Positions 2,490 to 42,822 of a stretch of 42,822 nt of DNA are shown here, piece by piece (within the stretch, counting starts at the first letter, position 1; every line of letters starts with the position of its first letter). The notes under the pieces were generated by a model that ran no database searches, was not told the origin of the DNA, and saw nothing but the letters and a program-made list of their open reading frames with translations. The stretch comes from a bacterium (GTDB taxonomy: Bacteria > Actinomycetota > Acidimicrobiia > Spongiisociales > Spongiisociaceae). The position numbers and the translations under genes were made by a program. The stretch covers positions 1 through 42,822 of the forward strand of contig JAPPHZ010000001.1 of NCBI GenBank assembly GCA_028820935.1. Reading direction: 5' to 3'.

Positions 2490-3554
2490 CTACCGGCCGT
2501 CCTGGGCTGCCGAGTCATCTTCGAGTATCCAGATGTGCTCCTTGGGCAACTCGACGAACACCTGGTCGCCCGGGGTGAGAGTGACGGACGGCGGGGCGTG
2601 GACCGTCCACGTGGTCTCCGCCAGCTGCACGAAGACCTGTGTATGGGTACCCATGTAGATCGCCGAGGTCACCGTCGCCGGGAGGCCGTTCTCGCCACCT
2701 GCCCGGTTGGACAGCGTCAGGGTCTCCGGCCGCGCCGTGACGACGACCGGCCCATCGCCGGTGTCGGCCACGTTGTGGCCCACTGCGAGGTCGCCCGCGC
2801 CCGTGCTGACCACGTCGCCGTGGCGAGTCCCAGGCAGGAAGTTCTGGCTGCGGAAGAAGCTGGCGATGCCGGCGGTGCGGGGATGGCGATAGAACTCGTC
2901 CGGCCTGCCGACCTGCTGCAGGGTCCCGTCGAACATCAGCGCGATCCGGTCGGCGAGCATGACCGCCTCCTCCTGGTCGTGAGTAACGAAGATGGCGGTG
3001 ATCCCGAGATCCCGTTGGATCGAGCGGATCAGGTGGCGCATGGTGATGCGCAGGTTCGCGTCGAGGTTGGCGAGCGGCTCGTCGAGCAACAGGACCTTGG
3101 GATGGGTGACCAGGCCTCTCGCCAGCGCCACCCGCTGCTGCTGGCCTCCGGAAAGTTGGTGCGCCTTGCGGGTGCCGAAGCCGGACAACTCGACCCGTTC
3201 CAGCATTTCCTCCACCCTCCGGTTGATCTCGTCCTTGCCCATGCCGGCCATCTTGAGGCCGAAGCCGACGTTCTGGGCCACGGTCATGGTGGGGAACAGG
3301 AGATGCTGCTGGAAGATGAGCACCGCACCTCGCCGTTCGGTTGGGACCTCCACCACCGATGACCCGTCGAACAGCACATCCCCCGTGGTGGGGCGCGCCA
3401 GCCCGGTGATCATTCGCAGGGTGGTGGTCTTGCCACACCCGGAAGGACCGAGCAGGGCAACCATCTCCCCCGAGGCGATTTCCAGGTTCAGGTCCTTGAC
3501 CGCCCATTTGTCACCGAAGGCCCGTCCGAGATGGACGAGAGACACATCCGTCAT
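2490..3554 (-). CDS. ABC importer ATPase (PotA/MalK-like, COG3842 type)
   Basis: Energises the importer encoded by the three genes upstream. Seen over 354 residues: Walker A GPSGCGKTT (36-44), Q-loop FQQ (81-83), signature LSGGQQQR (134-141), Walker B VLLLDEP (154-160) and switch His192 in VTHDQEEA. A C-terminal TOBE-like regulatory region covers about residues 235-350. The start overlaps the end of the preceding permease gene by 4 bases (ATGA), which indicates translational coupling. The subfamily usually serves spermidine, thiamine, iron or sugar importers, so the ligand cannot be taken from this subunit. It is peripheral on the cytoplasmic face of the membrane. Confidence 0.95.
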   Translation of the reverse strand: MTDVSLVHLGRAFGDKWAVKDLNLEIASGEMVALLGPSGCGKTTTLRMITGLARPTTGDVLFDGSSVVEVPTERRGAVLIFQQHLLFPTMTVAQNVGFGLKMAGMGKDEINRRVEEMLERVELSGFGTRKAHQLSGGQQQRVALARGLVTHPKVLLLDEPLANLDANLRITMRHLIRSIQRDLGITAIFVTHDQEEAVMLADRIALMFDGTLQQVGRPDEFYRHPRTAGIASFFRSQNFLPGTRHGDVVSTGAGDLAVGHNVADTGDGPVVVTARPETLTLSNRAGGENGLPATVTSAIYMGTHTQVFVQLAETTWTVHAPPSVTLTPGDQVFVELPKEHIWILEDDSAAQDGR

Positions 3555-4432
3555 ACCTTGCCGAAACCTCCCATCACGGTCGAGCCGCGCCCCAACGACC
3601 TAGAGGTCAGGATCAACACCATGACCGCGGGTGCGACGAAGATCAATGTAATCGAGGCCGCCACCGCGGCATTGCCCTGCCCGAGGAACGGGAAGAGCAC
3701 CATCGGCAGGGTGATCAGTATTCCGCTACCGATCAGAACCGTGGTCACGTACTGCGACCACGAGATCAGGAACGTGAAGAGGCAGGCCACGAGCAGTCCC
3801 GACGAGATGGCGGGCAGGGTGACGTACCGGAACACCCGTATCTTGTTGGCGCCGAGGGTTCGGGCCGTCTCCTCCAGGGCCGGGCTGTAGTTGGCGAACA
3901 CGCTAGACATCACCAGGACGAAATACGGTGTGGCCGGTATCAAGTGGACCAGCGACACGCCCAGGACGGTCGCGGTGAGGCCCAGCCTGATGAACACGAT
4001 GTGGATCCCCATGGCGGCTACCAGCGCAGGCACGATGATCGGCATCATCAGGATCCACTCGACTACCCGCTTGCCGCGGAACTGGTGCTGGCCCAGGGCT
4101 CGGGCTGCGGGCATACCGACCAGGAGCGCCAGAGTGGTGGTAAGCAGCGCGATGCGTAGGCTGTTTCCGAGCGATTCGAACACACGTGACGTGTCGTCGA
4201 TGGTGTAGGTCCAGGCGTCCAAACCCCACTCACCGGGAACAACGTCGGGATAGTGCCAGCGGAAGGCGAAGGACCTGAGCAGCAGCGACACCCCCGGCAG
4301 GACCACCGACACCACGATGACGGTTACGGTGGCCCAACGCAACCAGTTGATCTGCCGCCGCCCGGGCTTCCGTCGTTCGCTCACTGCCTGGTCCGGACCC
4401 GGGGCAGGCCCGGGAGCATCTGGCGAGGTCAT
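3551..4432 (-). CDS. ABC importer permease (second)
   Basis: Membrane-spanning subunit of 293 residues. Seen: a hydrophilic Pro-rich N-terminus, a first membrane helix near residues 33-52, about six helices in total, and the EAA loop that docks the ATPase (EETARTLGANKIRVFRYVTLP region, near residues 185-206). It belongs to the binding-protein-dependent inner-membrane component family. It lies 19 bp after the first permease gene and overlaps the ATPase gene by 4 bases. In E. coli the related YnjC is one large protein; here two ordinary-length permeases take that place. The ligand is unknown. Confidence 0.93.
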   Translation of the reverse strand: MTSPDAPGPAPGPDQAVSERRKPGRRQINWLRWATVTVIVVSVVLPGVSLLLRSFAFRWHYPDVVPGEWGLDAWTYTIDDTSRVFESLGNSLRIALLTTTLALLVGMPAARALGQHQFRGKRVVEWILMMPIIVPALVAAMGIHIVFIRLGLTATVLGVSLVHLIPATPYFVLVMSSVFANYSPALEETARTLGANKIRVFRYVTLPAISSGLLVACLFTFLISWSQYVTTVLIGSGILITLPMVLFPFLGQGNAAVAASITLIFVAPAVMVLILTSRSLGRGSTVMGGFGKV

Positions 4433-12000: not shown

Positions 12001-12016
12001 GCGAACATATGTTCTA
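12001..12016 (-). promoter_or_regulatory. LexA (SOS) box of the ruvCAB operon
   Basis: The sequence GCGAACATATGTTCTA contains CGAAC-ATAT-GTTC, close to the Gram-positive/actinobacterial LexA operator CGAAC-N4-GTTCG (last G replaced by T). It ends about 28 bp before the ruvC start, where an operator overlapping the promoter is expected. Known: ruv genes are SOS-controlled in many bacteria. Inferred: DNA damage releases this operon. Confidence 0.85.
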
Positions 12017-12072
12017 GTCTAGCCCGCCGCGGCCACAGTTCCGGCTCTTTCCGGGCTGCCAAACGTCTTGCC

Positions 12073-12238
12073 AGTGGTCTGTCTGTGGAATGGCGGCGTG
12101 GTATGGCGTCGGCAGCGGTGTTCCTCGCAAGGCCCGCTGACGAAGGCGTGCCCGCAGCGGCACGGTGAGGAAGCGGAACGCAGCGAGGGGCGCCGATGAC
12201 CGCCAGAGCACGCCTAGCTGTTCCACAGACAGACCACT
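12073..12238 (+). repeat. Family 1 palindromic element, complete copy (166 bp)
   Basis: The terminal inverted repeats are 16 bp and perfect (AGTGGTCTGTCTGTGG and its complement). The centre is a 6-bp stem CGTGCC-cgcagc-GGCACG at 12147-12164, exactly 74 bp from each end. Between them are further pairings, such as CCGCT/AGCGG and CCTCGC/GCGAGG, so the whole unit can fold into one long bulged hairpin. The base after the right end is A, giving the TA seen at other copies; the left flank has CA. It lies between the HTH gene and ruvC, and its end forms part of the HTH stop codon. No gene is inside it. Confidence 0.88.
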
Positions 12239-12458
12239 ACCAATCGTCGGGGTCCACGCGCTGGTTTCGAAGCCACTCGATGACCCGGTCACGATGGAAC
12301 AGGAGCCGTCCCTTGACACTGGCGCAGTCGATCCAGCCCTCTCCGATGAGGCGACGGGTCTCCTCGATGGAGAGACCGAGCAGGTCGGCCACCCCGGGCA
12401 CATCGAGGACCGGGGGGAAGAGCCGGGGATCGCTGCCGGCATCCGATGGGTAGATCAT
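12237..12458 (-). CDS. Small helix-turn-helix protein (excisionase/MerR-like HTH_17 type)
   Basis: 73 residues. Seen: DVPGVADLLGLSIEETRRLI followed by a Gly/Trp turn and GRLLFHRDRVIEWLRNQ. This is the layout of the winged HTH_17 domain found in excisionase-like and small regulatory proteins. It lies 48 bp downstream of the Flp-like gene on the same strand, so it is probably the last gene of the Tad operon and a candidate regulator, though it could be independent. The TAG stop is completed by the end of the family 1 element, so the original C-terminus may have been altered by insertion. The ribosome site is weak. Confidence 0.72.
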   Translation of the reverse strand: MIYPSDAGSDPRLFPPVLDVPGVADLLGLSIEETRRLIGEGWIDCASVKGRLLFHRDRVIEWLRNQRVDPDDW

Positions 12459-18795: not shown

Positions 18796-18950
18796 AGTGA
18801 ATTGACGGTGTGATGTGCGCCGGCCGGCGGCGTCTTCGCAAGGCCCGCTGACGAAGGCGTACCCGCAGCGGTACGTCAAGGAGCGAAACGCAGCGACGGG
18901 ACCGCCTACGGCAAGCAGAACACGCCAAGCAACTTCACAGGCCCGACACT
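18796..18950 (+). repeat. Family 1 palindromic element, decayed copy
   Basis: The core (about 18835-18890) is nearly identical to the complete copy. The central stem here is CGTACC-cgcagc-GGTACG at 18858-18875, against CGTGCC/GGCACG in the copy at 12 kb: both arms changed together, keeping the pairing. The left half is about 12 bp shorter and the terminal repeats are eroded (AGTG...CACT remain). It sits in the 379-bp gap between the unrecognised gene and the DtxR-type gene. I see no gene in the rest of that gap. Confidence 0.72.
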
Positions 18951-18980: not shown

Positions 18981-19050
18981 AACCAGCAATCAGCAACCAG
19001 CAACCAGCAACCAGCAACCAGCAACCAGCAACCAGCAACCAGCAACCAGC
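18981..19050 (+). repeat. Tandem repeat, ten copies of a 7-mer (AACCAGC)
   Basis: Exactly 70 bp; the second unit is AATCAGC and the other nine are identical. It ends 2 bp before the stop codon of the DtxR-type gene, on its 3' side. Read on the minus strand it is a run of CTGGTT/GCTGGTT. No stable hairpin forms. It is likely a slippage-prone microsatellite and a variable-number marker. Confidence 0.95.
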
Positions 19051-19052
19051 AA

Positions 19053-19712
19053 CTAATCGATAGCTACGAACAGCCGTTCCGAGGCGAAGACGCTGATGCC
19101 GACCGGCCGATCCCGCACCTCCACGGTTATACCCCCGTAGGGGTCCTTCTGCACCAGGCTGATCCGGGCGTCCGGCCGGATGTGGTTCTCGTCCAGAAAG
19201 CGCATCATGTCCGCGTCCAACTCCAGTTCCTCCGAGATCCGCTCGAGAGCCAGCGTCTCCCCCCTCTCCATTTCGGCAATGGCCTTCATCCGCGGAGGCT
19301 GGTAGCCGGCGCCCGGAATGGGGTTGCCGTGGGGGCAGGTCTTCGGATCGTCCATGACCTGCCACATGGCCTTCTCTACGTCATCCGAGATCATGGTCTC
19401 CCATACCTCGGCCTCCTCGTGCACCTTCGCCCATGGAAGCCTCAAGACCTCGGAGAGGAACCGCTCGGCGAGGCGGTGCCTGCGCACCACCACCGCTGCC
19501 AGGTGACGGCCCTCCTCGGTGAGACGAACCTCGTCAGACACGTTGACCAGGCCCTCCGCCGTCATCCGGCGAACCATCTCGGACACGCTGGCCGGGCTCA
19601 CTCCCAGCCAGCGCGCTATGCGGGCCTGGAGCACCGGGATACCGGCCTCCTCCAGTTCCCAGATGGCTTCGGCGTATTCGCGGCATCGGACGGAGTAGCC
19701 GGGATCAGTCAT
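19053..19712 (-). CDS. Metal-dependent regulator, DtxR/IdeR/MntR family
   Basis: 219 residues. Seen: an N-terminal winged HTH (YAEAIWELEEAG, then LGVSPASVSEMVRRM), a metal-binding and dimer domain with RHRLAERFL and the family motif CPHGNPIPG, and a C-terminal SH3-like domain. It senses iron or manganese and represses uptake genes when metal is bound; which metal cannot be told. It overlaps the 5-formyl-THF cyclo-ligase gene by 8 bases, so the two share a transcript. The 70-bp tandem repeat follows its stop. Confidence 0.92.
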   Translation of the reverse strand: MTDPGYSVRCREYAEAIWELEEAGIPVLQARIARWLGVSPASVSEMVRRMTAEGLVNVSDEVRLTEEGRHLAAVVVRRHRLAERFLSEVLRLPWAKVHEEAEVWETMISDDVEKAMWQVMDDPKTCPHGNPIPGAGYQPPRMKAIAEMERGETLALERISEELELDADMMRFLDENHIRPDARISLVQKDPYGGITVEVRDRPVGISVFASERLFVAID

Positions 19713-42769: not shown

Positions 42770-42822
42770 AGTGGTCTGTCTGTGTAATGGCGGTGTGGTA
42801 TGGCGAGGCAGCGGTGTTCCTC
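42770..42822 (+). repeat. Family 1 palindromic element, left part (cut by window edge)
   Basis: Starts AGTGGTCTGTCTGTG directly after a T (giving the TA tip) and continues with GCGTGG-type and GGCAGCGGTGTTCCTC segments, matching the left half of the copy at 12073 (up to about 12125) in the same orientation. It follows the VOC operon by 52 bp and lies downstream of it. Confidence 0.82.

Follow-up and report, generated by a model that had tools for sequence, protein, structure and literature searches.

A repeat family of Acidimicrobiia that is probably an IS630-type miniature element with a covarying hairpin

The window, meaning the whole stretch of DNA that was analysed, is the complete contig G000:C1 of 42,822 bases, belonging to a 3.3-Mb genome of 51 contigs. 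Near 12 kb it carries a 164-bp element, GTGG...CCAC (12074 to 12237, forward strand), forming one imperfect hairpin. The element is followed downstream by ruvC (PF02075; 11458 to 11973, minus strand) and adjoins a minus-strand gene for a 73-aa HTH_17 protein (PF12728; 12237 to 12458; 27.4 bits, cut-off 27). Read along the minus strand, the order is HTH_17 gene, element, a GAACATATGTTC palindrome (12003-12014, between the element and ruvC), ruvC, ruvA and ruvB; the palindrome, a putative LexA site, resembles those of actinobacteria. The left terminal repeat, GTGGTCTGTCTGTG, occupies 12074 to 12087 on the forward strand, and the right one 12224 to 12237 on the minus strand, where the family consensus is GTGGTCTGTCTGCG and this copy matches it at 13 of 14 bases, reading ...TG at the thirteenth and fourteenth. 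The end sequence GTGGTCTGTCTG is the putative transposase-recognised end. The left flanking dinucleotide is CA (12072 to 12073); the right one is TA (12238 to 12239), which with the last base of the element makes the TAG stop of the HTH_17 gene (12237-12239). The apical stem, CGTGCC-CGCAGC-GGCACG (12147 to 12164, forward strand), contains a covarying A-T/G-C pair. The copy was also found with matching flanks in G001 and G004 (L031 and L032), and it is therefore probably older than the split of those two species and that of its own genome.

The sequence-only reading had described four loci with one repeat unit, and all four were present, with matches far beyond chance. Besides the 12 kb copy they are, all on the forward strand, the right-hand portion of a copy that the contig start truncates (1 to 95; over 1-96 it is 89.6% identical to the corresponding portion of the 12 kb copy, E 1.7e-31), an old copy with degenerate ends (18796 to 18950; 77% identity over 18797-18930, E 3.6e-21) and the left part of a copy that is cut by the contig end and stops before the centre (42770 to 42822; 92.6% identity, E 7.9e-17). 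The two outer copies are truncated since the window spans an entire contig, which starts and finishes inside copies. The central stem was as claimed, CGTGCC/GGCACG at 12147-12164 and CGTACC/GGTACG at 3-20 and 18858-18875. A unit of about 166 bp was a fair description of the complete copy, with the extent slightly too wide, as 12073-12238 includes one flanking base at each end of the element proper (12074-12237); the terminal repeats are perfect, as had been stated, and measure 18 bp, not 16 bp, counted from 12073. The single orientation described for the copies holds inside the window; the rest of the genome has copies facing either way. Just past the old copy lies a tandem array of AACCAGC (10.4 copies, 18981-19053).

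A search of the full genome, which had been proposed as a check for further copies, gave at least 52 matches at at least 48 distinct places, four matches being reverse-strand echoes; these counts are lower bounds because 40 of 96 candidate stretches were scored. Matches were found in 12 of 59 genomes, the own genome included: nine of ten in the genus itself, where G009 is the one without the element, two from another genus within the same family, and, with a weak match, one from a different family. In a class-wide sample 23 of 395 genomes matched, again with the own genome included, several of the matches being short and near threshold. Phage and plasmid collections gave no match to the element, and viral contigs gave no match to a 26-base core pattern. 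The 220 profile hits were reduced to 185 once overlaps and reverse-strand echoes were dropped, and among the full-length copies 120 were distinct with their flanks and 118 distinct by sequence. At several places copies stand in tandem and are joined by an altered junction (CGCGTC after TTT, TAT or TCT), and 7 of the 120 full copies start with this junction form. Deletion derivatives of 94 and about 69 bp have lost the central part but not the ends, and insertion differences were seen between species. The repeat, which has no transposase gene, is shorter than about 300 bp and is present in many copies, has the attributes of a miniature inverted-repeat transposable element (MITE).

Insertion was seen directly at L060:13127, where the own genome reads CTA-GTGG...CCAC-TAG and G003, G005, G002 and G008 have a single CTAG; this was the sole clean empty site, the relatives carrying remnants or unalignable stretches at two others. 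At one of these, L060:8412, short end remnants stand in place of the element in G007, G004, G002 and G005, which are possibly excision footprints or deletions. TA was the commonest flanking dinucleotide of the family. Of the 120 full copies, 86 have TA next to one end or both, 28 have it next to both and 34 next to neither (left 42/120, right 72/120); CTAG adjoins one end or both in 63 copies and both ends in 14. Among the 60 copies with at least 93% identity to the consensus, TA was found on at least one side in 54 and on both sides in 25; among the 60 copies below 93% the numbers were 32 and 3. A TA duplication with a preference for CTAG is supported by the one clean CTAG site and by these flanks, many older copies lacking TA. 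We take the flanks as a TA duplication that would erode with the age of the copy, and insertion at other dinucleotides may also occur. A four-base duplication of CTAG was considered as well. The empty site alone does not discriminate between the two, and a TA duplication was preferred on two grounds: 111 of 120 copies begin with G (the 9 exceptions include 7 dimer junctions; the last base is C in 112 of 120) while the preceding C, T and A vary, and the terminal sequences are of the IS630 kind. TA within CTAG is reportedly the preferred target of the IS630 of Shigella, as Tenzen and Ohtsubo are said to have described in 1991. ISY100, a member of the IS630 family, duplicates TA (PMC2170065).

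The first G of the element completes a TAG stop codon in 12 of 43 scored copies of the own genome (28%), the 12 kb copy not counting among these 12 since its 73-aa HTH gene is below the scoring threshold. Ordinary CTAG sites of the same genome were such stops in 32 of 164 cases (20%), so no special targeting of stop codons is claimed.

The source of the ends was sought among transposases. A related signal came from G017, a genome of another family of the order, in which the exact 14-base end occurs at 26 places. Those fetched are the ends of a 105-bp MITE whose interior is unlike that of the window family, present in 17 complete and 2 cut copies that are alike by eye (L201-L217); their near identity suggests a recent burst. 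Another ten, lying at contig edges or close to them, come from an insertion sequence (IS), whose end encodes a partial IS630 transposase (PF13358 at E 2.6e-13, above the cut-off; NF033545 at E 6.4e-21 and 75 bits, below the cut-off of 100, the piece being partial). A search of named genomes with this transposase piece gave 28 IS630 loci, of which 22 were examined for their ends, six further Mycolicibacterium loci being left out. Five of the 22 (L235, L247, L251, L252 and L253) had no right end within 4 mismatches. The best counterpart was L237, a 1,144-bp IS630 in a Pseudonocardiales metagenome-assembled genome (MAG), which matches the family consensus at 14 of 14 bases at each end (GTGGTCTGTCTGTG on the left, identical to the left terminal repeat of the 12 kb copy, and GTGGTCTGTCTGCG on the right) and shares the left/right asymmetry of the consensus (...CTGTG / ...CTGCG); its transposase frame is split into two ORFs. 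Three copies in Mycolicibacterium frederiksbergense (L238-L240) match at 14/14 on the left and 13/14 on the right, their transposase is recognised as DDE_3 at E 6e-19, and in L238 the frame is open over 374 aa. In both L237 and L238 the TAG stop of the transposase frame consists of the flanking TA and the next target base, so that insertion at CTAG also supplies the stop of the IS630 transposase.

A full-length element with the same ends and a transposase, which the sequence-only reading had proposed to look for, therefore exists in other bacteria, and none was found in the genus. A DDE_3 transposase (PF13358) was found in 0 of 10 genus genomes and in 3 of 15 genomes of the family, all three outside the genus; a full-length IS630 protein likewise matched in 0 of 10 genus genomes and in 26 of 138 genomes of the order. 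The result for the genus, which is to be read with the tendency of MAGs to lose repeated elements, weakens the claim of a present source and leaves the type assignment unaffected. Other transposases were rejected as sources. DDE_Tnp_1 was present in 7 of 15 family genomes, and in the 30 loci fetched the 15-base end was nowhere matched with 2 or fewer mismatches (scattered matches were seen at 3 or 4); DDE_5 was found in 0 of 15. A REPIN or REP element moved by a RAYT (Y1) transposase would fit the hairpin, the mostly intergenic location and GTGG at both ends, an end that resembles the REP tag. This explanation is highly improbable, given Y1_Tnp (PF01797) in 0 of 15 family genomes, the empty CTAG site and the match to the ends of IS630. 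The suggestion of a MITE, one of two made from the sequence, was thus borne out by the many copies, the empty CTAG site, the TA flanks, the IS630-like ends, the deletion derivatives and the insertion differences between species.

The other suggestion was a mobile structured RNA. As an RNA, such an element would be transcribed with its neighbours or from its own promoter, and its hairpin would control mRNA ends, an effect that has been reported for ERIC of Yersinia and for Correia of Neisseria. The fold is very stable: the segment 12071-12240 folded end to end at -113.4 kcal/mol as RNA (z -10.7; z -9.3 as DNA). In the alignment of 118 copies 94.6% of the cells paired. Compared with shuffled and slid controls, in counts that include shared ancestry, there were 139 cells with two-sided changes (27.8 in shuffles, 41-74 in slid controls), a covariation score of 0.169 (0.125 and 0.039-0.065) and 29 pairs with two-sided changes (13.0 and 20-27), the last measure saying little on its own, as the slid controls come close to it. 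The apical pair was A-T in 82 of the 118 copies, G-C in 27, G-T in 4 and unpaired in 5.

Distant elements of 161-163 bp were found in G351, G316, G056, G134 and G133. When folded singly, seven of eight closed end to end, and the eighth, L292, keeps the outer stem and has a branched interior. Two G351 copies and one G316 copy start with GTGGTGTGTC instead of GTGGTCTGTC. Sixteen class-wide elements were aligned, hand-picked and without L295 and L296, two incomplete members of the ten distant loci fetched. In this alignment 20 of 45 consensus pairs stay paired through two-sided changes (13.3 in shuffles, 5-8 in slid controls), with 71 two-sided cells (23.4 and 6-15), the structure being favoured over the slid controls in these comparisons because it was derived from the same alignment. 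Unpaired core bases near AAGG and GAGGA were invariant or nearly so. The paired compensatory change noticed in the apical stem is accordingly part of a wider pattern, with covariation beyond that one stem in both alignments.

A conserved and covarying structure is what a structured RNA would show, and a maintained DNA palindrome predicts it too. The near-invariant unpaired bases around AAGG and GAGGA and the covariation in the two alignments would likewise suit an RNA. A further point in its favour was an excess of G-T over A-C among departures from Watson-Crick pairing on a parsimony tree (166 against 79, p 1.8e-8; tips only, 123 against 63). The excess was 112 against 71 at pairs with a Watson-Crick majority (p 0.004) and 77 against 51 at strictly conserved pairs (p 0.027; sign test by pair, p 0.24). 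It was absent among rare variants, where G-T to A-C stood at 7:12, 14:24, 23:28 and 32:32 for variants in up to 1, 2, 3 and 5 rows; common variants gave 8 to 3 (p 0.23). Selection on an RNA was therefore not argued from this asymmetry.

Gene context was examined by rough gene calling on the 52 of 120 copies with 500 bases of flank on both sides, a set that includes some orthologous copies and dimer halves, counted separately. All copies had been described as intergenic; this is so for 50 of the 52, which overlap no predicted gene, one copy overlaps a called ORF, and the left neighbour of L137 was not callable. Where copies stand in tandem gene contexts, 17 are sense and 17 antisense to their neighbours. 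Rare two-sided changes, in at most 3 rows, restored pairs in 10 of 18 types at the first 16 arm pairs (p 0.043) and in 7 of 20 types in the interior (p 0.52). An RNA at work at each site would be expected to bias the orientation to genes and, among rare changes in single copies, to favour retained pairs and G-T over A-C. The even gene orientation and the unbiased rare changes of the interior speak against an RNA function at individual sites, and the window has no Rfam match above the gathering threshold. The suggestion of a mobile structured RNA thus had no support from the site-level tests; an RNA function of the element is possible, and we regard the structured-RNA explanation of the repeat as unlikely.

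Covariation could also arise in DNA and in the absence of selection, by hairpin-templated correction (template switching in imperfect palindromes) or by exchange between copies. Among two-sided changes of the interior, 7 of 20 rare types and 10 of 12 commoner types led back to Watson-Crick pairing (Fisher p 0.012), a contrast among 32 change types whose threshold was picked after the table had been seen and which recombination among copies could mimic; over all arms the numbers were 17 of 38 and 11 of 14 (p 0.058). This concentration of paired changes in common variants would be expected of DNA copying, and tandem dimers and many near-identical units make exchange easy. Against it, variants present in one row were one-sided in 84 types and two-sided in 31, indicating that a new change in one arm is not as a rule transferred to its partner, and the arms still differ, with 57 of 78 aligned consensus positions being Watson-Crick. 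Copying as the cause of the covariation thus appears doubtful.

The repeat is very probably a non-autonomous IS630-type (Tc1/mariner) MITE, and its hairpin may be kept up in the source elements. An IS630 transposase acting in trans would insert the unit into TA, preferably within CTAG, and duplicate the TA. Such a transposase would have moved the copies in the lineage of the genus, arriving occasionally, for example by horizontal transfer, and then being lost; we infer this arrival and loss because the ten genus genomes yielded none. The hairpin would be kept in source elements that are still transposing, where it may pair the two ends or keep the element intact, and copies at fixed sites would decay freely. 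A point against this is that MITEs often originate as palindromes. Upkeep in the source elements fits the variants better than an RNA job at each site and is our best reading, and it is also the weakest part of the account.

ERIC/IRU repeats are palindromic. They resemble the element as repeats (127 bp) with terminal TA, and ERIC occurs in several enterobacteria (PMC2229807). The likeness is one of description, and the effect of ERIC on mRNA depends crucially on orientation (PMC2229807), whereas the copies here are evenly oriented. RUP of Streptococcus pneumoniae has been proposed to be mobilised by IS630-Spn1 and is similarly short and intergenic, with about a hundred copies, IS630-like ends, terminal TA and a tightly folded transcript form (PMC2229807 and PMC3049150). 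It differs in its length of 107 bp, its 9-bp terminal repeats and an IS630 that is common in the same species; our element has about 164 bp, its genus yielded no IS630, and relatives sharing a covarying core are spread across the class. Correia/NEMIS of Neisseria are TA-flanked MITEs with long terminal repeats, 24 bp in Correia (PMC2229807), and their transcripts are cut by RNase III (PMC2229807 and PMC10969869). The IS630 of Shigella shares the CTAG target and is an autonomous IS, whereas the unit here has no gene. MITEPsy1 of Pseudomonas syringae, a 100-bp MITE, inserts after CTAG or YTAA; it has been attributed to an IS5-type element with a 4-nt duplication, and its ends differ from ours (PMC3189936). 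In the literature searched, no account of such MITEs in Acidimicrobiia was found.

The family is of an ordinary type, an IS630 MITE, in an unusual state, with no source found in the genus and with an interior that covaries at the level of the class. It stands at dozens of copies per genome with no source transposase found in the sampled genus genomes, and the pairing of its interior hairpin is held over class-level distances. It therefore offers a concrete system for asking if the interior of a MITE, usually treated as ends plus filler, matters for its spread. More tentatively, the element and its distant relatives may form a superfamily of mobile hairpins that extends through the class, with units of about 161-166 bp. 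Their interior, made up of the apical stem and purine-rich internal loops with the near-invariant AAGG and GAGGA, would be conserved and covarying, and their ends would vary between some lineages, each being similar to the ends of a different IS630. If so, the interior would have a function of its own in the mobile unit, in the form of folded DNA or RNA, and would not be filler; it might, for example, be a putative binding site through which the passenger makes use of foreign IS630 transposases.

Copies of the MITE account for some contig breaks, since several contigs, the window included, end inside copies. On contig G000:C17 (L047, about 3169-3760), a gene lies between MITE-type end sequences and adjoins a full copy; judged by eye from its sequence, it presumably encodes a 3-methyladenine DNA glycosylase, and the stretch is possibly a captured segment.
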